In this document: one piece after another, positions 1,156-50,099 of the stretch | Layout: each line of letters opens with the position of its first letter | Position numbering within the stretch: position 1 is the stretch's first letter | From: a virus | Reading direction: 5' to 3' (one strand) | IMG/VR virus record: IMGVR_UViG_3300019890_000004 | Location: 1 to 64,000 of that record | DNA: 64,000 nucleotides | Translations under genes and position numbers: made by a program | The notes under the pieces: model-generated | What the model saw: the letters and a program-made list of their open reading frames with translations, nothing else | The model's database searches: none | What the model was told of the DNA's origin: nothing

Positions 1156-1177
1156 CCCGCTGCGGGGAGGCTGCCCC

Positions 1178-2644
1178 GTGGCCGACCAGCCCGACTACAC
1201 CGGCTCCTGCATGATCGCCCTCTACCCGCCGCCGGAGACAGCCGAGAAGCTGGCCGTCCCTGACGGGCTCAGCGCCAAGTCGATGCACGTCACGATCGCC
1301 TACACGGGCGATGCGGCGGACGTCGACCCCAAGGCGCTGAAGGCCGTAGCCAAGGCCCTCGCCGCCCGCCCGCCGTTCACCGCGACAATCAGCGGTCATG
1401 CCCGGTTCACCGGCGGCGAGCAGGACGTCATCGTCGCCCTTGTCGACGCGCCCGAACTGGAGACGCTGCGATCCGACGCCCGCAAGGCACTAGACGCGGC
1501 GGGCATCGCGATACCGTCCGAGCACGGGTTCACCGCGCACCTCTCGATTAGGTACTGCGGGCAGGACGACGCCGACCCCGTCGGCCGCCTGGCCGCGTTC
1601 CCCGTCAAGTTCGGCGCGGTATCGGCGGTCCACGCCAAGAAGCGCACCGACTACCCGTTCACTGACCCGCTCGCCGGGCAGGCCAGGGAAGCATACGCGG
1701 CAGGATGGGCGCTCTCCGGCGGCCCCATGACCGAGACGGTGAAGGCCGGGTGCACGGCAGCGGTCGCGCACGCGACCGAAAACCGCGACGACCCCGGCAT
1801 CCTCGAGGTGTCGCTGCACCTCGGGAAACTGACCGGCACGTGGGCGGAAGTCTTCAGGCGCCGCGAGGAACTGACCGCCCGCCACGCCGCCGCGATCACC
1901 GCCGCCTGGCGGAAGCTCGCCAAGCGCCTCGGCGTCCGCGACCTGATCACCGACTACCGCCACCGCCTGGCCATGGGCGAGTCGGACGGGCCGACGAAGC
2001 AGCAGAAGGAAGCAGCCGCCGCCGCGCTCCTGCTGTGGCTCCGGCAGATCCTCGACGACCCGGGTTACGCGGACCTCGCCTCGGCCATCGCCGCGGCGAT
2101 GGCCGCGGCGATCGCCGAGGGGCGGACGGCGATGCTCGCCGTGGCCGCCGACCAGGCCGCGGTGCTCGGGTTCGACTGGGGCAAGGCGTACGACGCCATG
2201 CGCGCCGCAGTGACGGACGCGGAGACCCAGGGCGCGGCCGGCCCGGTCACGCAGCAGATCATGGCCGCGGTCGCCGCCGGCGCGGGCCGGGTCCTCGCCG
2301 CCATGGAGGCCTCCGGGGCCGGTGACCCGGCGATCGAGAAAGCCCTCGAAGACGAGATCGCGGCCGAGGACGGCGCCGCGGCCCTCGCCGCCGACACGGC
2401 CATGAGCGGCTTCTGGGGCAACGGGGCGCTCTCCCTGGGCGCTGCCGAGGGCATCCTGCTGAACTGGATGACAGCGTCGGACGGCAGGGTCTGCCCGAGC
2501 TGCCAGGACAACGAGGATAACGGCCCGTATTACCCATCTGACTTTCCGTCACTGCCAGATCATCCGCGCTGCAGGTGCTGCAGCTCCCCGGCCGAGCCTC
2601 TCCCGATCTCCGCCTTCGCCGCCTTCCTCATCCCCACCGATTAG
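1178..2644 (+). CDS. 2H phosphoesterase fused to MuF-type minor head protein
   Basis: 488 residues from GTG 1178. Residues 10-160 look like a 2H phosphoesterase (2'-5' RNA ligase/LigT superfamily): the paired catalytic motifs are H37-V-T39 and H121-L-S123, about 84 residues apart as expected. A long alanine-rich helical region follows, and the C-terminal 60 residues carry the MuF (Mu gpF) signature: C439PSC442, a proline-rich turn, then HPRCRC at 462-467. MuF proteins bridge portal and capsid and can be carried inside the virion; fused N-terminal enzymes are known for the family. The substrate cannot be read from sequence: 2',3'-cyclic RNA ends, 2'-5' oligonucleotides or cyclic nucleotides (as for Acb1) are all possible. 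Confidence 0.85.
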   Translation: MADQPDYTGSCMIALYPPPETAEKLAVPDGLSAKSMHVTIAYTGDAADVDPKALKAVAKALAARPPFTATISGHARFTGGEQDVIVALVDAPELETLRSDARKALDAAGIAIPSEHGFTAHLSIRYCGQDDADPVGRLAAFPVKFGAVSAVHAKKRTDYPFTDPLAGQAREAYAAGWALSGGPMTETVKAGCTAAVAHATENRDDPGILEVSLHLGKLTGTWAEVFRRREELTARHAAAITAAWRKLAKRLGVRDLITDYRHRLAMGESDGPTKQQKEAAAAALLLWLRQILDDPGYADLASAIAAAMAAAIAEGRTAMLAVAADQAAVLGFDWGKAYDAMRAAVTDAETQGAAGPVTQQIMAAVAAGAGRVLAAMEASGAGDPAIEKALEDEIAAEDGAAALAADTAMSGFWGNGALSLGAAEGILLNWMTASDGRVCPSCQDNEDNGPYYPSDFPSLPDHPRCRCCSSPAEPLPISAFAAFLIPTD

Positions 2645-3908: not shown

Positions 3909-5720
3909 ATGGCTAAGGCAATCGCGACGCTAGGCGGCGTGGCCCTTGAGCCCGGAGTTTCCCGCAACCGCCGCTGGTACACCGCCGAGCACATCGCCGG
4001 CGCTGTCGCCGAGGCACGGAAGCGCCTCGCCCGCGGCGACCAGCCGATGGTGATGCTCAGCCACCATGAGGCCGGCGATGACAGCCTCCGCATAGCGGCC
4101 GCCCTCCGGAAGGTGAGCCTCACCGATGACGGGCGGATCCGGTGGGAAGCCGATATCCCCGACACGGAGACGGGCCGGCAGATCGCCGCCCTCGCCGACA
4201 CCAGCGACGGGAAGCCCGCATTCCTCGAGGGCGTCTCGATCCGGGGCCGGTGGACGGGGCGGGTACAGAAGGTCCGCGCCCCTGACGGGGACTTCGCCGA
4301 GCAGGGCCAGGGGCTCCTCATCGACGGCCTGGACTTCACTCACAAGCCCGGCGTACCGGGTGCCCGCATCGACGCGTTCTCGTGGGCGAAGGACGGCGCC
4401 AGCGAGACCGACGACCGGGTGCTCATCACCGAAAGCGTTCAGGAGGCACGGGTGACCGTGATCACCGAGGAGACATCACCCGCGATCGGCGAGTCCGCGC
4501 CCGAAGGCGTGCGGGAGGCCCTGCGGGCCGTCTTCGGCGAGTCCGTCACCGAGGCGGCCACGCCCGCCGTATCCAAGCGCGGACCGGGCCTGTCCGACGA
4601 CGGCGGGCGCGTCTACGCGGACCCCGGCTACCAGAAGGACAAGAAGCAGCGCTACGACATATCGACCAAGGCGAAGGCGAAAGCCGCCTATGCCTACTCG
4701 TCGCAGCCCGGCAACGCCAAGCTGTACACCCCGGCGCAGCTCAAGCGGGTCAAGGGCCGCATCAAGGCGGCGCTCGGCAAGTTCGGCGTCACCGTCGCGG
4801 CCGAGGGCTGGACGATCGACCCGGCGGTCCTGCTGACCGAGGCGCTCGTCGAGTTCTACGGCGGAGACCCGGACTGCTGCGGCAGCTACTCGCTGTCCGC
4901 CACCAACGGCCCCACGACCGTCACCGTCTGCTCGTACGGCCTGGACCCCGCCGACCTTCAGGTGATCCTCGCGCAGGCGTGCAAGGGCGCGGGGATGGCC
5001 CTGTCGGCGCTTGACCCGGACATGGACGGCGACGTCGACGTGGACGGCGAAGATCCAGGCGAGTCCGCTCCCGGCCCGGAAGAGCCTGCCGCCGAGACCG
5101 AGCAGGCCGACCCCGCCGTCACCGAGACGGCACCCACCGAAGACCCGGCACCGGACCCCGCTGCCGACCGAGAAGGAACGGAGGAGCCCGCGATGAGCGA
5201 GCCCACCACAGAGACGGTCGCGCCGGCCCCGGCTGCCGCCACCGCTGTCATCCCGCAGGACATCATGGCCGAGGCGATCCGCAAGGCCGCGAAGAAGGCG
5301 GCGAAGAGGGCGCTCGCGGCAAGCGGCACCGCCCCTGCCGAGTCCGCCGCTGCCCCCGCGGCCGCCGCGGCGGTGACGGAGACCGAGGACGAGCGGGTCG
5401 GCCGCATCGTCTCCGAGCGGCTCGCCGCCGAGCGTGCCGCGGCGGCCGTCACCGAGACCGACGAGGCCCGGATTAACCGCCTCGTCGAGGAGCGCCTCGT
5501 CCGCGAGCGCCAGGAGATCACCGCGTCCGGCGGCGGCCCCGCCCGCAAGGGCCTGGTCGCCGAGCACGCCGGGTCGGGTGCCTCCTCCGGTGAGATCCCC
5601 GCCGACTTCCCCATGAAGAACGGGGCGATGATCCCGACCGAGGAATGGACGGACGACCAGCGGCGCGCTGTCGGCGTGCAGCTCGAGCGCCACGTCCTCG
5701 GCTCCCGCGCCAGCTCTTAG
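3909..5720 (+). CDS. Capsid maturation protease with C-terminal scaffold domain
   Basis: 603 residues. Residues 1-170 resemble phage prohead/S78-like proteases: a His pair at 52-53 (SHHEAGDD) and a Ser at 110 (LEGVSIRGRW) are the likely catalytic residues. Around residues 220-300 is a Lys-rich segment resembling DUF6582 (DPGYQKDKKQRYDIS, LKRVKGRIKAALGKFGV). An acidic Pro/Glu linker leads to a C-terminal helical scaffold-like region rich in Ala/Glu/Arg (VGRIVSERLAAERA). The major capsid gene follows at 5842, the classic protease-scaffold-capsid order. An internal start at 5193 would make free scaffold. Confidence 0.85.
   Translation: MAKAIATLGGVALEPGVSRNRRWYTAEHIAGAVAEARKRLARGDQPMVMLSHHEAGDDSLRIAAALRKVSLTDDGRIRWEADIPDTETGRQIAALADTSDGKPAFLEGVSIRGRWTGRVQKVRAPDGDFAEQGQGLLIDGLDFTHKPGVPGARIDAFSWAKDGASETDDRVLITESVQEARVTVITEETSPAIGESAPEGVREALRAVFGESVTEAATPAVSKRGPGLSDDGGRVYADPGYQKDKKQRYDISTKAKAKAAYAYSSQPGNAKLYTPAQLKRVKGRIKAALGKFGVTVAAEGWTIDPAVLLTEALVEFYGGDPDCCGSYSLSATNGPTTVTVCSYGLDPADLQVILAQACKGAGMALSALDPDMDGDVDVDGEDPGESAPGPEEPAAETEQADPAVTETAPTEDPAPDPAADREGTEEPAMSEPTTETVAPAPAAATAVIPQDIMAEAIRKAAKKAAKRALAASGTAPAESAAAPAAAAAVTETEDERVGRIVSERLAAERAAAAVTETDEARINRLVEERLVRERQEITASGGGPARKGLVAEHAGSGASSGEIPADFPMKNGAMIPTEEWTDDQRRAVGVQLERHVLGSRASS
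5193..5720 (+). CDS. Nested in-frame scaffold protein
   Basis: ATG 5193 lies in the frame of the protease gene and is preceded by GGAGG at 5180-5184, 8 bases upstream, a better ribosome site than many starts in this window. It would yield 175 residues beginning MSEPTTETVAPAP and ending HVLGSRASS, exactly the coiled-coil scaffold portion. This matches the lambda C/Nu3 arrangement, in which a scaffold is translated independently from within the protease gene. Seen: start, ribosome site and frame. Inferred: use in vivo. Confidence 0.6.
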   Translation: MSEPTTETVAPAPAAATAVIPQDIMAEAIRKAAKKAAKRALAASGTAPAESAAAPAAAAAVTETEDERVGRIVSERLAAERAAAAVTETDEARINRLVEERLVRERQEITASGGGPARKGLVAEHAGSGASSGEIPADFPMKNGAMIPTEEWTDDQRRAVGVQLERHVLGSRASS

Positions 5721-5841: not shown

Positions 5842-7248
5842 ATGCCCAGCGAGCTCCGCGAGGCACTCACCGTCAGCGGTGTAGGCCCGCTTCTCCCGAA
5901 GATCATCGACCCGCTCCTCCTGGAGTACATGCGGCGCATCGCGCCCCTGGTGCGGGCCATCCCGTCCACCAAATGGGACACCGACGTCTACTACTGGAAC
6001 AACCGTTCCGCGGTCGCCACCGGCGGGTTCGTGTCCGACGGCGGCGCCGCCCCCGTCAGCAACTCGGTGTACAACCAGTCCAGCTTCCAGATGAAGCACC
6101 TCCAGATCGTCGGCGCGGTCACCGGGTACAGCCAGGCCGTCACCCGCATGGTCATCGGCGACCTGCGGCAGACTGAAATCGAGGGCTCCATCCAGGGCCT
6201 CCTGTGGGACACCGAGACCGCGATCGACTGGGGCAACTCCGCCTCCACGATCAACGGGGCACGCCCGCAGTTCGACGGCCTTGACACGCAGGTCGCGACA
6301 TACTCCGGCGCTTACCAGAACGCGCAGGACAAGGGCGGCAACACGCTCACCACCGCCCACCTCGACGAGCTCATGAACATGGTGCAGATCAACGCGTCCA
6401 TGCCGCTCCTGGGCAGCAGCTGGATGTTCGTCTGCTCGTCCACGGTCATCAGCAAGGTCGCCCAGCTCCTCCAGGGCCAGCAGCGGTTCAGCCAGGTCCA
6501 GGTCGCCCCCGGCCTCCTCGTCGACTCCTACCGCAACATCCCGATGATGACCACGTCGTTCCTGGCGCCGCAGTCCTACGGCATGAGCACCGTCACCGCG
6601 GCAGGCGCGTCCGGGTCCCTGCCCGGCGGCCTGTCCTCGCTCACCGGCTCCCTCGCCAACGCCGCCTACAAGTACGTGGTAGCCCCGGTCATCGCCCGCT
6701 CCGGCGAGATCCTGCCCTGCGCCGAGGTCACGGCCACCACGGGCGGCACCTCCGGGTACGCCACCCTGTCGTTCTCCGTCCCGTCGGGGCAGGACGGCGC
6801 CCTGCCGACCCTGTACAAGGTGTACCGGACCGCCTCGGGCGGGGCGGCGGGCAGCGAGACGTTCCTCGGCTACGTCGACAGCACTGTCGGGCTCGCGGCG
6901 GACGGCGTTACCCCCGTGTACGCCACCTGCATCGTCGACAGCGGCGCCGCGCTCATCCCCGTCGTCGGCTCGTCCGCGACCACAGTGCCCGGCACCCTCG
7001 CGACCACGTACTTCGGCACCAACACCGGCATGTACCCGCTCGCCGCCGGGCTGGAGAACATCTACCTCATGGCCAGGGACCGCAATTTCGTGATCCGGCC
7101 CTACGTGAGGGAATGCATGCCACTCGATGTGTATCCGACCACTAACTCTCCGGATTCACTGCCTTATGCGCTCGTTACCGATACCTGCCTGGCTGTGCGG
7201 GCGCCGCGTTACCTCGGCAGGCTCAGCCGGGTCACCACAAGCGTCTAA
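5842..7248 (+). CDS. Major capsid protein with inserted Ig/FN3-like domain
   Basis: 468 residues; ATG 5842 with GGAAGGG upstream. The N-terminal part (LLEYMRRIAPLVRAIPS, later SFQMKHLQIVGAVTGYS) and the C-terminal part (MPLDVYPTTNSPDSLPYAL) have the character of an HK97-fold capsid protein of the type seen in large-capsid actinophages. Between about residues 255 and 385 is a Ser/Thr/Gly-rich beta segment (LSFSVPSGQDGALPTLYKVY) that reads like an FN3/Ig-type insertion, probably surface-exposed. Length and position after protease/scaffold support the call. Confidence 0.85.
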   Translation: MPSELREALTVSGVGPLLPKIIDPLLLEYMRRIAPLVRAIPSTKWDTDVYYWNNRSAVATGGFVSDGGAAPVSNSVYNQSSFQMKHLQIVGAVTGYSQAVTRMVIGDLRQTEIEGSIQGLLWDTETAIDWGNSASTINGARPQFDGLDTQVATYSGAYQNAQDKGGNTLTTAHLDELMNMVQINASMPLLGSSWMFVCSSTVISKVAQLLQGQQRFSQVQVAPGLLVDSYRNIPMMTTSFLAPQSYGMSTVTAAGASGSLPGGLSSLTGSLANAAYKYVVAPVIARSGEILPCAEVTATTGGTSGYATLSFSVPSGQDGALPTLYKVYRTASGGAAGSETFLGYVDSTVGLAADGVTPVYATCIVDSGAALIPVVGSSATTVPGTLATTYFGTNTGMYPLAAGLENIYLMARDRNFVIRPYVRECMPLDVYPTTNSPDSLPYALVTDTCLAVRAPRYLGRLSRVTTSV

Positions 7249-38162: not shown

Positions 38163-39211
38163 CGGCCCCCTTCCGTGCATGACCGGATGGCCGCCTCGGC
38201 TGCCGGGCGGTTCTCGAATTTCACCGGTGACGGCGACGGGGCTGCCGGGTCGTCGGCGAGGTTGATGTTCCAGAACCAGATCCCGCGCATGTGCTCGGCG
38301 GCTGCTGCGGTGCAGGCGGCGGTGAACCAGCGTGCCTGCACCTCGTCGTCGGGCGGCCCGGACCCTGGCCAGTCCCACGGTCTCCCGTACGCGCCTGCCG
38401 CTGCGGGGATGCCGATCTCGTCGATCGCGGTCCGGTGCAGCACCGGCGCGGGGACGCGGGACAGGAAGGCCTCCCATGCCGCGGTCAGATCCGTCACCGT
38501 GGCGGTGGCCGGGAGGGCGATGTTCGGGTAGGCGGTCACCCCGTACTCGCTGACCGGCATGAGGTGGCCGTCACCGTAGAAGAACCCGCCGTCGCCCGGC
38601 TCCCCGCCCCACTGGGCGTAGGAGAGGATGCCGCGGTAGATGCCCGCCGCTTTCGCGAAGAACCAGGCCCACCGGGGGCTCGACGCGATCGAGGCGCGCT
38701 CGGTCCCGGCGATGAACTCTGCGACATGGTCTTGCTGCGCGAGGGCCAGGTAGGGCCGTTCGGCGGCGAGGAGGCTGCCGAGGAACCCCGCGGGGCGCGC
38801 CGGGCGCAGCGGCTCGACGCGCCCCGGGACCCGCAGCAGCACCCGGTAGGTGACCTGGAGCCCGTACGAGCGGGCGATCGACGTCAGCGCGCCGATGTCG
38901 GCCGGCGGCGGGGTGCCGGGACCGGCCGCGTCGACGGTGCTCGCGCGGTCGCCGCGCACCTCGTACGTCCATGCGATCTGCACCGCGCTGACGTGCAGGA
39001 CGCGGGCAGCCCAGGCGATGCTCTGCCGCCCGCGCGCCTCCGTATCGGCAAGCGGCCAGTCCCGGTCGGCGTACAGCACGACGCCCGCCGTGAGCCGGTA
39101 CGGCGCCGGGGAAGGCCCCGGGGGTACCGGGCCGGAGCTGAAGCTGAGGCGCGCCGTGCAGCCGGCCAGGAGCAGGGCCGCGGCCGCGCAGCCCGCAGCG
39201 CGCCGCCTCAC
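38159..39211 (-). CDS. Lipoprotein with glycosidase-like TIM barrel
   Basis: 350 residues from GTG 39211 (GTGA overlap). N-terminus VRRRAAGCAAAALLLAGC is a lipoprotein signal with lipobox LAGC. The rest looks like a glycoside-hydrolase barrel of the GH113/mannanase-like kind: ALTSIARSYGLQVTYRV, SPRWAWFFAKAAGIYRG, TAIDEIGIPAAAGAYG (with a Glu in a position typical of a nucleophile) and MRGIWFWNINLADDP. Catalytic role and substrate are inferred. It is coupled to the glycosyltransferase gene, so the pair probably acts on the same surface polymer. Confidence 0.65.
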   Translation of the reverse strand: MRRRAAGCAAAALLLAGCTARLSFSSGPVPPGPSPAPYRLTAGVVLYADRDWPLADTEARGRQSIAWAARVLHVSAVQIAWTYEVRGDRASTVDAAGPGTPPPADIGALTSIARSYGLQVTYRVLLRVPGRVEPLRPARPAGFLGSLLAAERPYLALAQQDHVAEFIAGTERASIASSPRWAWFFAKAAGIYRGILSYAQWGGEPGDGGFFYGDGHLMPVSEYGVTAYPNIALPATATVTDLTAAWEAFLSRVPAPVLHRTAIDEIGIPAAAGAYGRPWDWPGSGPPDDEVQARWFTAACTAAAAEHMRGIWFWNINLADDPAAPSPSPVKFENRPAAEAAIRSCTEGGR

Positions 39212-42200
39212 CGGCGCAGCCTCCAGACGGTGACGGTCCCGTTGAACCCGGTCCATGACCTCACCGGGACCGCCCCGGCGAACACGCGCCGGAACGGCAC
39301 GTCCCCGAGCGACTGCGTCGTCTGGAGGTAGGTGTCCCAGGTGATCGCCCAGGACGCTTCCCCTTCGCACGGGCCGGATACCTGCTCACGGCAGTACGGC
39401 TGGCCGATCAGGTCCCCGACGGCCTCGTCGGCGATCACGACCGCGCCGGGCGGGATCGATGCGGCCGCGTACTGCTGCACGCCGGCGAACACGTTGTCGT
39501 CATGGGCGGCGACGCGGGCGCCGAACGACAGCAGCCCGGCCGCGACCGCCGCAGCGGCGATTACCGCGCGGTAACGCGGCCGCACTTGGCGCCGGTGCGC
39601 CTCCGTCCAGAAGTAGGCGTAGGCGGGAATGAGGATGAGGGCGAAGTACTGCGGGAACCGCAGCGAGCTGGCACCGAACACGACGACCCCGGCAGTCATC
39701 CACGACAGCAGCAGGGCGTTGCCGCGCAGCGAGGCGAGGTTCCGCGCCCGCCACGCCGACCGGACCCGCCGCAGCGCCGTCACCACGCCCGCGCACGCGA
39801 CCGCGAGGCTGGCCGCGAACATCCAGTACTCGCCGAAGAGCAGGTGCAGCGCCTTCGCCGGCGATGTCAGCGTCCCGCCGGACTGCTGGACGCCGAGGAC
39901 CCGGCGAACCTGCACTATCGTGTCCTGCCACCACAGGTGGCCGCCGAACATCCGCGCCTCGATGAGGATGCACCCGGCGAACGCGGCGGCCGCGCAGCCG
40001 AGGAGCACCAGGTGCCCGCGGCGGTCACCGCGGCGGATGAGCCAGCACAGGGCGACCGCGACGAGAACATACGTCCCGGTGTATTTGAACGCCGCGGCGA
40101 ACCCCAGGACGGATCCGGCGGCGGCGAACCGCTGCCACGACGGGCGGTCCAGTGCCGCCTGGTACAGCAGCATCCCGCCGGTGATGAGCGCGAGCAGCGC
40201 GTTCTCCAGGTAGCTGACCCGCTGGATGTACAGCAACCACCCGTCGAGCATGACCGGGACAATGGCGAACAGCGCCGTCCGCGGCCCGTGGACCCGCCGG
40301 ACCAGCAGGTACAGCAGTCCCAGCGACGCAAGCGAGCACGCCGCCCCGAGGAGCCGGGCGTGGTAGACGGACGGCCCGGCGGCGGCGAACCAGCGGGCGA
40401 GCGCCAGGAAGTAGAACGGCGGCTGGAACAGGTCAGTGGTCACCGCCGTGCCGTAGGTGGCGTGCTCGGCGAGCTGCCCGTGGCGCAGCAGGCCCGTCGC
40501 GACCTGGGTGTAGACGCCTTCGTCGTACTGCCAGCCGGGGCGGGATGCCAGGGACCACAGGCGCAGGACGGCACCGGCGGCGAAGACGGCGGCGAGCGCG
40601 AGCAGCCCGGCGCGTCCCAGCCCGCGCGCCGGCGCCCGCGGGCCCGCGGAATCCCACACCGGAGCGTCTCGTTCGGTGGGCATCAGCAGGGTAGTGGTCA
40701 GCGTCCACGCGAACACCCCGCCGAGGGCGAGGGCCGCGGCCGGGTAGGCGGCTGCCTCGAGGGACCGGGACCGCACCGCTTCCCGTCCCGACAGGACTGC
40801 CAGCGCGCCGACCGCCAGTGCCAGCACCGCGAGGGCGTGCCCTTCCGCCGCGGCGGCGGCTGCCGCGATCACCGCGGCGAGAGCGGCGACCGGGAGGCCG
40901 AAGGCCTGCGCCCTCCGCTTCCCCGCCAGCGCCGACCCCGGGTGCCGCCGGACGAACTGGGCGCACCCGTGCGCGGACCGCCGGTACTCGCGCACCAGGT
41001 GCGCGAACTTCTCCCGGTGATGATGATCACCGGTCAGGCCCGGGTGCATGGTGATCGGGCACCCGTCCTCGGCGAGGCGGTGCATCCACTCGTAGTCCTC
41101 GTACCCGTACGCCCACGCCACGTCCAGGGGGCACGCCTCGTACGCGGCCCGGGTGACGACCGCGTTGGCGGTGACCGGGGGCTTGCGGCCCCGGTGCCCG
41201 AAGTTCGCCGCCGTCACCGCGTACGGGCCCGGGATCCGCGACGTCTTCGCCGCCAGGATGTTGTTGTCGACGAACCGGGGCCAGAACTTGTGCGGCCGGA
41301 TCGCCCGCATCCCCCCGCCGACCAGGCCCCCGCCCTGCTCCCGCAGGAGGCCCACGGCCCGGGTCAGCCACCCGGGGTCCATCACTATGTCGGAGTCCGC
41401 CAGGGCGATGACCTCCCCGTGCGCGGCCCGGACGCCCTTGTCCCGCTTCACGTTCGGGTCACGGCGGCCGGGGGTCTTCTCCTGCTCGACCAGCCTCAGC
41501 CGCCGGTCCCGCACTCCGTCCAGCGCGGCCCAGGTGGAGTCGCCGACGTCGCCGACGAGGATCACCTCGAGGAGCCCCGGGTAGTCCTGGGCGAGCAGCG
41601 ACTCCACGGTCGCCAGGATCGTCGCCTCGTTCCCCTTGCAGGGGATCACCGCGCTCACGGAAGGCTGCCACCGCGGCGGCAGCGGAACAACAGGCCGCAG
41701 CACCCCGCCGTCGCGGCTCTTGCGGGCGACGCGGGTGGCGGTGAACGTCCACAGGTCGCCGGTGACGTAGTTCGCCGCCAGGAACACGGCGGTGACTGCC
41801 AGGTTCGCGGCCAGCCACCCAAGGCCGACGCGCAGCAGCAGCGCGTACAGGGCGAAGTTCGGGGCGGTCAGGGCCAGCTTCTGCACGTTGAACCGCCACG
41901 CCGCCGGCCAGAACGGCGACCGCCGGTCCCGCCACGTCACCCGCCAGTTCAGGGCGAAGCTCGCCTCGATGCTGAACACGGCCTGCCCAGCGTAGGACCC
42001 GTACCGGCCTGCATGGGCGGCGACCAGGAGCGCCTGCACGGCAATGCCGGCGACGAGGACCAGGGCGCCGATCGCGCTGAACGCGGTGAACCTCGCCCCG
42101 TGCCTGGCCAGGACCACGCCCGCGGGGGTCGACGGCGGGGCGGAATGACGGCCGCGGCCCGGGGCCATGACTGCGGCTGCCCGGTCGAGCTCGGCGCGCT

Positions 42201-42435
42201 CCGGCTCGCCGAGCGCCCTGAGCTGGTCCCCGGGCGCAAGCCGTTCCTGCTCCCCGGTGTACGGCCCGTCGTACGGGGGGAACTCCCGCGTGGCGGTTAC
42301 CGCCGACTGCCGTGCGGCGAGTTCCTCGAGCACTGCGGTCGCGTCGAGCACCTCGCCCGTATTCGGCCCGAGGTACGGCTGCTCCCGGAGTTCCCGCCAG
42401 TCTTCGTTGGGGAGGGTGGGGGCGTCGGCGTTCAC
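39208..42435 (-). CDS. Tripartite glycosyltransferase: GtrA-like, GT2 and GT-C (PMT-like) modules in one protein
   Basis: 1075 residues from GTG 42435 with GGAG upstream. Residues about 120-255: four hydrophobic segments like GtrA flippases (FSAIGALVLVAGIAVQAL, ANLAVTAVFLAANYVTGDLW). Residues about 290-510: GT2 domain with VSAVIPCKGNEATIL and the metal-binding ALADSDIVMDPGW, later HREKF. Then hydrophobic helices, and from about 650 a GT-C/PMT (GT39-like) part with WQYDEGVYTQVA and FQPPFYFLA plus ten or so membrane segments. In serotype-converting phages these jobs belong to three genes (gtrA, gtrB, gtr type); here they appear fused. Confidence 0.8.
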   Translation of the reverse strand: MNADAPTLPNEDWRELREQPYLGPNTGEVLDATAVLEELAARQSAVTATREFPPYDGPYTGEQERLAPGDQLRALGEPERAELDRAAAVMAPGRGRHSAPPSTPAGVVLARHGARFTAFSAIGALVLVAGIAVQALLVAAHAGRYGSYAGQAVFSIEASFALNWRVTWRDRRSPFWPAAWRFNVQKLALTAPNFALYALLLRVGLGWLAANLAVTAVFLAANYVTGDLWTFTATRVARKSRDGGVLRPVVPLPPRWQPSVSAVIPCKGNEATILATVESLLAQDYPGLLEVILVGDVGDSTWAALDGVRDRRLRLVEQEKTPGRRDPNVKRDKGVRAAHGEVIALADSDIVMDPGWLTRAVGLLREQGGGLVGGGMRAIRPHKFWPRFVDNNILAAKTSRIPGPYAVTAANFGHRGRKPPVTANAVVTRAAYEACPLDVAWAYGYEDYEWMHRLAEDGCPITMHPGLTGDHHHREKFAHLVREYRRSAHGCAQFVRRHPGSALAGKRRAQAFGLPVAALAAVIAAAAAAAEGHALAVLALAVGALAVLSGREAVRSRSLEAAAYPAAALALGGVFAWTLTTTLLMPTERDAPVWDSAGPRAPARGLGRAGLLALAAVFAAGAVLRLWSLASRPGWQYDEGVYTQVATGLLRHGQLAEHATYGTAVTTDLFQPPFYFLALARWFAAAGPSVYHARLLGAACSLASLGLLYLLVRRVHGPRTALFAIVPVMLDGWLLYIQRVSYLENALLALITGGMLLYQAALDRPSWQRFAAAGSVLGFAAAFKYTGTYVLVAVALCWLIRRGDRRGHLVLLGCAAAAFAGCILIEARMFGGHLWWQDTIVQVRRVLGVQQSGGTLTSPAKALHLLFGEYWMFAASLAVACAGVVTALRRVRSAWRARNLASLRGNALLLSWMTAGVVVFGASSLRFPQYFALILIPAYAYFWTEAHRRQVRPRYRAVIAAAAVAAGLLSFGARVAAHDDNVFAGVQQYAAASIPPGAVVIADEAVGDLIGQPYCREQVSGPCEGEASWAITWDTYLQTTQSLGDVPFRRVFAGAVPVRSWTGFNGTVTVWRLRR

Positions 42436-42560
42436 GCGGCACTCCTGACCGTGCGGGCGATGTCGAGGCATGCGGAGGCGAACGACACGGCACCGCAGGC
42501 GGCGAGGGCCAGTGCCGGAAGGATGTCGATGGGCTCGGCGAGGAGAACGGCGGCGATCAT
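42432..42560 (-). CDS. Small membrane protein (42 aa)
   Basis: ATG 42560 overlaps the excisionase stop and its own stop overlaps the glycosyltransferase start (GTGA). Sequence MIAAVLLAEPIDILPALALAA with a single hydrophobic helix. The double coupling strongly suggests real translation. Role unknown; maybe a partner of the large membrane transferase. Confidence 0.6.
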   Translation of the reverse strand: MIAAVLLAEPIDILPALALAACGAVSFASACLDIARTVRSAA

Positions 42561-42787
42561 GCGGCACCCTGCGCGGCCGGCCGCGGGTCGACGCGGCGCG
42601 CGTCGAGCCAGGCGTCAACGTCATCCAGGTCGTAGCGGACATGCTTGCCCACCGGGATGTACTTGGGGCCCTCGTGCTTGTGCCGCCAGTCCTTGAGGGT
42701 GTCCGGGGAGATCCCCCCCAGGTAATCGCCGACTTCCTCGGGACTCGCCAGCGGGCGCTTCTCGGGCGGCTTCTGTGCGCCGGGCAT
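42557..42787 (-). CDS. xis: Excisionase / MerR-like recombination directionality factor
   Basis: 76 residues from ATG 42787, with AGGAGGG upstream. Winged-helix excisionase pattern: ASPEEVGDYLGGISPDTLKD, then WRHKHEGPKYIPVGKHVRY and DLDDVDAWLDARR. Transcribed away from repressor and integrase, it opens the leftward conversion operon and lies beside the operator region. Expected to bind near attP and bias the integrase towards excision, and possibly to act as a repressor. Confidence 0.8.
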   Translation of the reverse strand: MPGAQKPPEKRPLASPEEVGDYLGGISPDTLKDWRHKHEGPKYIPVGKHVRYDLDDVDAWLDARRVDPRPAAQGAA

Positions 42788-48029: not shown

Positions 48030-48283
48030 CGCTCTTCTCCTTCGCTGCGCTCATCGCGGAACTCTCTTGCCTGCACGCCGTGCGCCTTCAGCTCGGCGAG
48101 GATGTCGTCTTCGGTCCGCCCGTAGTGGATGACCACCTCGATCTGCGGGAGGCCGAGCTGCTTCATCTGCGCCGCACTGACCCTGATCGGCTCGCCCGCT
48201 GCCAGCCGGGTGACGTTCTCACCGGACAGGCCGAGCAGGAGCAGCGGGATACCGAGGCCGGTCTTGCCGGCCGCCTTGATCAT
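48026..48283 (-). CDS. Conserved small phage protein
   Basis: 85 residues from ATG 48283 (ATGA overlap). KTGLGIPLLLLGLSGENVTR, LAAGEPIRVS and LPQIEVVIHYGRTEDDILAE form a compact alpha/beta protein that I have seen as a recurrent small gene in actinophages, function unknown. Lies between the phosphatase and the RHIM-motif genes with four-base overlaps on both sides. Confidence 0.6.
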   Translation of the reverse strand: MIKAAGKTGLGIPLLLLGLSGENVTRLAAGEPIRVSAAQMKQLGLPQIEVVIHYGRTEDDILAELKAHGVQAREFRDERSEGEER

Positions 48284-48708
48284 CAGAAGTTGCCTTCCGC
48301 CACGGCGAAGCAGGTGAGGCCGAGGGACCGCCACATGGCGACAACGCGAGCCCGGTCATCGATTACGCCGGTGATCTCGTAGAAGTCCCGGATTTCGCGC
48401 TCGTAGATTGCGCACTTGAGCTTGTCGTCAGGCGTGTAGTCGCCGTCGGGCCGCATGTGCAGGTGAACCGCGTCGATGCGGTGCCGGTTCAGCCACGCGA
48501 TCGTCGCGAAGCGGCACTCCTCCATCCGGCCCGACACGAAGATGATCCGGTGTCCGGCGCCGATAAGTGCGCGGACGACCGCGAGAACGGGCTCGTTCGG
48601 CTTGTCCTCGCCGACCCGGCTCCAGTCGTACGGGCTGCGGTCGCCCCTCAGTGCCACGGTGCCGTCGATGTCGACGATCCACGCCTTCGGCCTGGTCTCA
48701 GGCTGCAT
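48283..48708 (-). CDS. Polynucleotide 3'-phosphatase domain (HAD; PNKP C-terminal type)
   Basis: 141 residues from ATG 48708. HAD motif I DIDGT at 13-17 (nucleophile Asp13), motif II FVSGR, then ATIAWLNRH, HMRPDGDYTPDDKLK with the motif III Lys, and IDDRARVVAMW as motif IV. This is the phosphatase half of T4 Pnkp without a kinase domain. It would remove 3'-phosphate or 2',3'-cyclic phosphate from nucleic acid ends. The RlaP-like gene follows one gene upstream, which points to RNA end healing. Confidence 0.85.
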   Translation of the reverse strand: MQPETRPKAWIVDIDGTVALRGDRSPYDWSRVGEDKPNEPVLAVVRALIGAGHRIIFVSGRMEECRFATIAWLNRHRIDAVHLHMRPDGDYTPDDKLKCAIYEREIRDFYEITGVIDDRARVVAMWRSLGLTCFAVAEGNF

Positions 48709-48895
48709 TCCCGTCCTCCGTCTGCTTGATTTCCGCTGTCCAGCCGAGAGCGGTCACCTGTCCGGCGACCGTTCTTGCCTCGGCCTCGTTCTCGCATCCG
48801 CGCCACAGTCCGAGGTGGAATCCGGCATCCCAGCGCAGGTCATCATCAGCCCACCCGGACGTGTCCGGGGTCATGGCAACCTTCCAGGCGGTCAC
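48698..48895 (-). CDS. Small early protein
   Basis: 65 residues from GTG 48895 (GTGA overlap; ATG 48874 also possible). Contains DDLRWDAGFHLGLWRGCENE and a beta-like TALGWTAEIKQTED, resembling small stand-alone SPOR/RNA-binding style folds, without a firm match. Encoded between the two predicted RNA-repair enzymes and overlapping both. Confidence 0.55.
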   Translation of the reverse strand: MTAWKVAMTPDTSGWADDDLRWDAGFHLGLWRGCENEAEARTVAGQVTALGWTAEIKQTEDGNAA

Positions 48896-49620
48896 TCCCG
48901 GTCCCAGTAGGCGCGGCGGACGTCCTGAAGCCACGCCTCGGCCGCCGCCTCGTCGGGGCGGTCCGGCAGCACGCCGGGCCTGTCGAATGCCGCCTCGGCG
49001 TCTGCGAGCGCCCGCGAGGCCAGGTCAAGATCTCCGGCGGCGACCGCCTCGCCGAACGCGCGGCAGAACTTCGCCATGGACGGGTGGAGCAGCACCGGCA
49101 GGTGCCCCGTCTGATGCAACTCGGAGCCCTGGTAAAGGAGCCGCCACAGGTGCCTGGCGTGCTTGCCCGTTCTCTTTCGGGTATCGGCGCTGAATGAGCC
49201 GTCTCCGCGGTTCCGTATCCGACCGAACTGCTGCGTGGCGTAGCCGAGGTAGGCGTTGCGCACGGCCTTCGCCGACAGGACCGCGGTCCGGATGCCGATC
49301 AGCGCCTCACCCTGGGGGGTCGTCGTCTCGTACTCGTCCAGCCACAGCAGTTCGGTGACCGTGGGGTTGCACTTGAGGATCAGTACGGCCAGCTTCCCCG
49401 CCTCGTGATAGGTGGCGTCAGGCTTGGTGCTGACCCAGGTCGCGGCCTTCCCGATCGGGAGGTGCAGGCCGTGGAACTGCGACGTCGGGGCGGCGTAGCA
49501 GCCGATCCGGTCGACGTCGGAGTCCTCGGTCGCGAGCCCGTAGGCGGTTGACCCGTTGATGCCCGCGAGGAGCACGTTCGGCGGGGGCTTGATCTCAGCG
49601 TCCAGGACGTCGGCGGTCAC
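48892..49620 (-). CDS. RlaP-like nucleotidyltransferase (COG3541 type)
   Basis: 242 residues from GTG 49620 (GTGA overlap). The pol-beta-type nucleotidyltransferase signature is clear: GSTAYG at 23-28 followed by EDSDVDRIG (Asp35, Asp37). The rest (LWLDEYETTTPQGEALIG, LSAKAVRNAYLGYATQQFG, HARHLWRLLYQGSELHQTG) matches RNA-ligase-associated nucleotidyltransferases found in phages and with RtcB/PNKP systems. Precise reaction is not established. Together with the 3'-phosphatase it suggests an RNA repair module. Confidence 0.8.
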   Translation of the reverse strand: MTADVLDAEIKPPPNVLLAGINGSTAYGLATEDSDVDRIGCYAAPTSQFHGLHLPIGKAATWVSTKPDATYHEAGKLAVLILKCNPTVTELLWLDEYETTTPQGEALIGIRTAVLSAKAVRNAYLGYATQQFGRIRNRGDGSFSADTRKRTGKHARHLWRLLYQGSELHQTGHLPVLLHPSMAKFCRAFGEAVAAGDLDLASRALADAEAAFDRPGVLPDRPDEAAAEAWLQDVRRAYWDRE

Positions 49621-50099
49621 CGGGACAGCCCCCTGAAGTCCCCGACCCACTCGCCGAAGGTCGGCACGTTCATATACCCGTACTCGCGGCAGAAGGCCGC
49701 GTACGCTTCGCCGAGGGCCGCCAGGTCCTCACCGCCGAGCGCCGCCCTGGCCGCGCCGGGAGCCAGCGCGGCCTCTGCCTCGGCACGGGCGGCGATCACC
49801 CGCCTCCGTGCCTCCACCGCCTCGCCCAGCACCTTCCCCGCTGCTTCCCGGTCGGTCTCGTACTGCGCGGTCTCCGCCGCGAGCCGTGCCCGCTCCCGCC
49901 CGGTCTCCTCATCGATGAGGCCCGCGGCGACGGCGAGCCGGTGACGCCGCTCCGCCACGTCCACGTCGTGCCCGGCCGCCGTCACCGCGTACGCCGCCCC
50001 CGATCGATCGATTGCCCGCCGTGCCGCCGGAGCCAGCCAGACCACAGCCGTCATCACCGGAACGAGCACGACCGCCGCCCAGATCAGGGTGTCACCCAT
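49617..50099 (-). CDS. Membrane-anchored coiled-coil protein
   Basis: 160 residues from ATG 50099 (ATGA overlap). N-terminal hydrophobic helix (LIWAAVVLVPVMTAVVWLA), then a long Ala/Glu/Arg coiled coil (GRERARLAAETAQYETDREA, RRVIAARAEAEAALAPGA) and a C-terminal aromatic segment (CREYGYMNVPTFGEWVGDF). Unknown role; perhaps membrane attachment of an early phage complex. Confidence 0.6.
   Translation of the reverse strand: MGDTLIWAAVVLVPVMTAVVWLAPAARRAIDRSGAAYAVTAAGHDVDVAERRHRLAVAAGLIDEETGRERARLAAETAQYETDREAAGKVLGEAVEARRRVIAARAEAEAALAPGAARAALGGEDLAALGEAYAAFCREYGYMNVPTFGEWVGDFRGLSR

Follow-up and report, generated by a model that had tools for sequence, protein, structure and literature searches.

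A stretch of 64,000 nucleotides (the window), taken from the start of a 71,571-base IMG/VR virus record, encodes a polypeptide in which a 2H phosphoesterase domain is fused to a MuF-like minor head protein. As judged from comparisons of the sequences of its relatives, the 2H domain is a detachable module, which occurs joined to several different head proteins. We tentatively interpret the window gene as coding for a two-part minor head protein that delivers an active 2H phosphodiesterase against a host immune nucleotide signal. Both the fusion and the idea of an anti-signalling function have already been published: Iyer et al. (2017) reported fusions of 2H domains with MuF or portal proteins and proposed that they act as RNases or destroy 2'-5' oligoadenylate and defence nucleotides (PMC5512222), and a 2022 survey restated this proposal, with packaging and injection (PMC9503650). 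The window gene is a further case, to which the present comparisons add the repeated gain and loss of the 2H domain, its fusions to protease and capsid proteins, its position on a separate branch and the Tyr126 feature. The fusion gene, its parts and its neighbours are the following:

1164..1170 (+): putative ribosome-binding site GGGGAGG, read from the sequence, 7 bases 5' of the GTG start codon
1178..2644 (+): fusion gene, 2H phosphoesterase plus MuF-like minor head protein, open frame of 488 aa
1178..1663 (+): 2H phosphoesterase domain, residues 1-162 (PF13563, AlphaFold model, structure matches)
1286..1294 (+): catalytic motif I, H37-V-T39 (conservation in 67 distinct related domains)
1523..1546 (+): H116-G-F-T-A and catalytic motif II, H121-L-S123 (conservation in 67 related domains)
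1553..1555 (+): Tyr126, equivalent of LigT Arg130 (alignment)
1664..1825 (+): inter-domain junction, residues about 163-216, of low confidence (pLDDT 47-66 in the full-length model)
1670..2641 (+): MuF-like helical head-protein core, residues 165-488 (2H-less relatives, PHROGs, BFVD)
2492..2578 (+): Cys/His signature C439-x2-C442 ... H462-P-R-C465-R-C467 (aligned cores)
3909..5720 (+): putative head maturation protease, 603 aa (phrog_207 6.5e-4, DUF6582 2e-6)
5842..7248 (+): major capsid protein, SU10-type (SU10_MCP 1e-8; phrog_752 6e-33)

Residues 28-132 of the fusion protein match PF13563 (2_5_RNA_ligase2; E 5e-13, 49.8 bits against a gathering cut-off of 27), and its 2H half further matches a PHROG labelled 'RNA ligase' (E 4e-14). 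An AlphaFold2 model of the domain, computed with 15 relatives, has a pLDDT of 89 and adopts the two-lobed fold that, along with two HxT/S motifs, characterizes the 2H superfamily. Its top structural match is the Deinococcus CPDase (drCPDase; Z 17.3), with further matches to LigT (Z about 15), Usb1 (14.1), the rotavirus VP3 PDE (13.4), the Arabidopsis Appr>p CPDase (11-13) and Acb1 (11.5-12.2). The 2H fold that the original prediction had assigned to the N-terminal domain is thus recovered in the model, and both catalytic motifs lie where it had placed them, within an open frame. Sequence searches of solved structures returned chance matches only with the single window protein, and Acb1 of phage BCSR5 (E 0.01) with a 2H profile. 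The two catalytic histidines, H37 and H121, each occur in all 67 of the distinct related domains, whatever their architecture, as does S/T123; Thr39 is found in 66, H116 in 59 and the complete HxT/S motif pair in 66 of these. A near-universal extra signature in the relatives flanks motif II, with H116-G-[FYW]-T preceding it and Tyr126 following it; the latter position is Tyr in 64/67. Given the retention of both histidines in all 67 relatives, the 2H domain of the fusion is probably an active enzyme.

Acb1 had also been invoked in the original prediction, and membership in that family is not supported. The window domain scores 15.5 to 18.5 bits with the Pfam Acb1 model, against a cut-off of 27, and falls outside the Acb1 clade in a tree of 2H domains with 44 rows, on which long branches limit placement; membership in Acb1 was hence rejected. 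When the sequences are aligned, F77 comes close to W74 of Acb1 and M12 close to its Y12, while the Acb1 residues E141, which contacts adenine, and W147, of the lid, belong to a C-terminal part that cannot be aligned. What the window domain does share with Acb1 (T4 gp57B) is the 2H fold, an HxT/HxT-type tetrad, a Tyr after motif II and a weak but collinear similarity, with the 2H family profile aligning T4 Acb1 over 96 columns (E 2.6e-5); T4 Acb1, however, has no head protein as a fusion partner. Membership in ThpR/LigT was likewise rejected. ThpR is the best NCBIfam match of the window protein (E 4e-9) and ThpR/LigT are closest to it in fold, the window domain being of LigT-like length with the closing strands; yet its TIGR02258 score of 36.6 bits is under the equivalog cut-off of 65.7, it sits in a separate clade, and it has Tyr126 where the HxTxxR motif of ThpR/LigT has Arg130. 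This LigT residue coordinates the phosphate and the nucleophilic water (PMC5283653). The position is Arg in 8/8 ThpR proteins and Tyr in both T4 Acb1 and the window domain. In the 44-row tree Acb1 (100/100) and ThpR each form a clade of their own, with full support and a long stem, and the head-module 2H domains belong to neither, so that family membership does not reveal the substrate. PADLOC returned no match for the window gene, and since it returned none for T4 Acb1 either, this null carries no weight.

The remainder of the protein (residues 165-488) is a helical domain ending in the CxxC...HPRCRC signature, the residues of which show little or no variation in the alignment of the cores. 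Head-morphogenesis PHROGs match residues 425-472 (E 1.5e-6 to 1e-3), and BFVD predicted structures annotated as minor capsid and head-morphogenesis proteins align to the core over about 300 columns. The curated models score below their cut-offs, with 16.2 against 29.6 bits for Phage_Mu_F (PF04233) and 19.2 against 39.65 bits for the NCBIfam SPP1 gp7 model (TIGR01641). Thus, of the MuF assignment made earlier, the signature with C439, C442, H462, C465 and C467 is real, as are the helical fold and the place after the portal and before the capsid gene, whereas a match to the curated families is wanting; we accordingly call this half a MuF-like minor head protein, weak against curated models and supported by PHROGs, fold and position. 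That it shares one polypeptide with the 2H domain is confirmed by full-length relatives (L006, L007 and L009; 59-72% identity), all of which keep both halves together. No portal gene was found in the whole 71,571-base record, which is therefore probably a fragment beginning just inside the head module, and the head genes directly upstream were read from relatives: portal and terminase precede the fusion gene in L009 and L030, records with more upstream sequence, and a portal also lies upstream in L021. Elsewhere in the window, an open frame of 1144 aa (39208-42642, minus strand) has GtrA, glycosyltransferase 2 and PMT-like mannosyltransferase segments; it is unusually large for a phage gene and may include a non-coding extension.

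Copies of the same core without a 2H domain are found in several related records (L008, L010, L014, L017, L021, L022 and L104), and on the core tree the presence of the 2H domain changes at least 5 times, all of these changes being forced by supported branches. As the head core exists without it and its presence changes so often, the 2H domain is an accessory that is not required for assembly. Where fused proteins are compared in pairs, the 2H half is mostly more conserved than the head half at a similar dS, the dN/dS values being rough with dS near saturation at this GC content. The identities of the 2H part and the core to those of the window are, respectively, 92% and 63% in L006, 82% and 60% in L009, and 75% and 37% in L030, with L007 (61% and 58%) as an exception. 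The uneven identity of the halves points to exchange of the 2H part.

The 2H domain also occurs in other settings. In another head module, most clearly in L036 and also in L034, L037 and L038, a solo 2H gene with 60-64% identity to the 2H part of the window gene is lodged between the genes for the portal and for a ClpP-type prohead protease; the tree of 2H domains places these free-standing copies in among fused ones. In distant relatives the domain is fused to portal plus MuF (L072, L075, L077), to portal (L084, L086) or to MuF (L073), and S78-type proteases carry it in L001, L003, L071 and L107, among them Arthrobacter phages. An open frame of 983 aa (L085:3977-6928) encodes a single polypeptide with the 2H domain, a prohead protease of the S78 type and an HK97-type capsid domain. 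Since the relatives were partly collected with 2H queries, these architectures are statements of existence and not of frequency. Two further head-gene variants were seen: the portal of L008, a record without a 2H domain, has a C-terminal extension weakly resembling a ParB-like nuclease (L008:2476-4407), and a Streptomyces prophage (L105:7962-9152; 396 aa) has an intact 2H domain and a head part that the core model fails to recognize, possibly a broken or diverged fusion.

A tblastn search with the 2H part recovered 347 phage records, nearly all of them actinophages, and the domain was located in the head region in 12/12 sampled isolate records, which are from phages of Arthrobacter, Gordonia, Mycobacterium, Rhodococcus, Brevibacterium and Streptomyces. 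These head-module genes are usually annotated 'RNA ligase', and otherwise 'aldolase' or 'portal'; T4 Acb1 itself carries the label 'RNA ligase' in NC_000866. For the head-module 2H genes 'RNA ligase' is a misleading name that is worth correcting. In the Gordonia phage FlyingTortilla (L002:5728-7820) the head-module 2H gene is directly followed by a gene for a VIP2-like ADP-ribosyltransferase (PF03496 2e-13), and an open frame of 1030 aa in L074 (1595-4687) has a NUDIX domain near its N-terminus and a 2H domain near its C-terminus. A scan of bacterial genome contigs with the head core gave no match; a scan of bacterial genomes with the fused family gave matches in Streptomyces, Peterkaempfera, Streptantibioticus and Kitasatospora (Streptomycetaceae) and in Nonomuraea, from which we conclude that the window phage probably infects a Streptomyces-like actinomycete.

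In the mechanism that we tentatively favour, the MuF-like C-terminal half would be built into the procapsid near the portal, bringing along the active 2H phosphodiesterase, which would ride in the head and reach the host cell together with the DNA; position and fusion are what suggest packaging and injection. The enzyme would cut 2'-5' or 3'-5' phosphodiester bonds with a neighbouring ribose hydroxyl, or a 2',3'-cyclic phosphate. Its likeliest target, the least certain element of the mechanism, would be a host-immunity nucleotide signal, such as the cyclic oligonucleotides of CBASS-type systems or similar molecules, destroyed before the alarm spreads. The conserved catalytic residues, together with a dispensable and re-attachable place by portal, MuF, protease and capsid genes, argue for a head-carried enzyme delivered with DNA. 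Some standalone 2H copies have no head fusion, which counts against this mechanism, and the late head-operon position could also mean late expression without injection. In the literature on Arthrobacter phages and actinophage capsids we found no virion mass spectrometry of the 2H-head protein. LigT-like PDEs that destroy cGAMP are known from T4 (Acb1) and avian poxviruses, and viral LigT-like PDEs repeatedly target immune nucleotides (PMC9117128, PMC11410667).

The main competing explanation concerns RNA ends: a head-delivered ThpR/LigT-type enzyme might open the 2',3'-cyclic phosphates that anticodon nucleases of the host leave behind and take part in tRNA repair with PNKP and RlaP. Two genes of this kind that had been noted in the window are indeed there:

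48283-48708 (-): PNKP 3'-phosphatase domain without the kinase half
48892-49650 (-): RlaP nucleotidyltransferase, adjoining PNKP

Their presence, the drCPDase/LigT-like fold (closer than that of Acb1) and the ThpR match all pull towards 2',3'-cyclic RNA ends as substrates. The partnership of the fusion with these genes that had been postulated is not supported by a wider comparison: of 17 related records, 2 have PNKP and 3 have RlaP, counts that are suggestive only, as some records are fragments, and the PF09414 RNA ligase was found neither in 8 related records nor in that of the window (a search for the T4 RnlA-type ligase, PF09511, carries no weight, its control having given no signal). Moreover, the phosphate-binding Arg130 of ThpR is replaced by Tyr in nearly all of the related domains, which lie apart from the ThpR clade, and T4-type PNKP by itself removes 2',3'-cyclic phosphates. 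Iyer et al. never saw such 2H domains with RNA ligases (PMC5512222). We therefore consider coupling of the fusion to RNA repair weak and this explanation unlikely, and the Tyr-for-Arg replacement, the weak collinear similarity to Acb1 and the scarcity of RNA-repair partners lead us to lean slightly towards destruction of an immune signal by the 2H enzyme, a reading that we hold at slightly less than even odds. Of the interpretation proposed at the outset, then, the intact 2H active site and the MuF-like partner stand, as does the character of an accessory module that comes and goes within head operons, in keeping with packaged and injected cargo; Acb1 membership and the RNA-repair partnership are not supported.

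Other activities appear less probable still. Activity towards products derived from NAD, such as ADP-ribose 1'',2''-cyclic phosphate or further cyclic ADP-ribose signals, would fit the match to the Arabidopsis enzyme and the head-module 2H domains beside a VIP2-type ART or fused to NUDIX, but these associations are in distant relatives and no ART or NUDIX neighbour was detected among the window genes scanned, making it quite improbable. An injected RNase attacking host or CRISPR RNA, in the manner of Usb1 or of MuF-fused PBECR domains, was suggested for 2H-MuF fusions (PMC5512222) and agrees with the Usb1 structural match; this match, however, is general to 2H enzymes and is accompanied by no Usb1-specific sequence match, so we give it very little likelihood. 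The least probable reading is that the 2H domain merely aids assembly or is a harmless passenger: it does sit in a structural gene, but its catalytic residues are invariant, its half of the protein is strongly conserved and many relatives have a working version of this head protein that lacks it.

A broader version of the immune-signal reading, in which a third phylogenetically distinct branch of virion-delivered actinophage 2H enzymes, apart from Acb1 and ThpR and swapped among MuF, portal, prohead-protease and capsid proteins, destroys an immune nucleotide at DNA entry, possibly a new actinomycete signal, is conceivable but on the whole doubtful.

The window gene resembles the published 2H-MuF and 2H-portal fusions (PMC5512222, PMC9503650) in its fusion partners, its late-gene setting and the role proposed against nucleotide signals. 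It differs from them in that the 2H domain is N-terminal to a diverged MuF core, and the present analysis differs in tracing gain and loss on a tree and in the prohead-protease and capsid-polyprotein partners; in the literature consulted we found no 2H domain fused to a protease or capsid protein, though such fusions may be published elsewhere. The MuF polymorphic toxins (PMC5576092) are similarly MuF-type head proteins bearing an enzyme, but they have an N-terminal MuF, a variable C-terminal toxin and immunity proteins (PMC12226406), the reverse of the order in the window. We found no test of the 2017 prediction in the literature. The 2H domain occurs in several hundred sequenced actinophages, including easily grown phages of Mycobacterium smegmatis, Gordonia, Arthrobacter and Streptomyces, and hence that prediction is testable in laboratory systems. 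Should virions contain the enzyme, and should it cut an immune signal, the phage would intervene before expressing any gene of its own.
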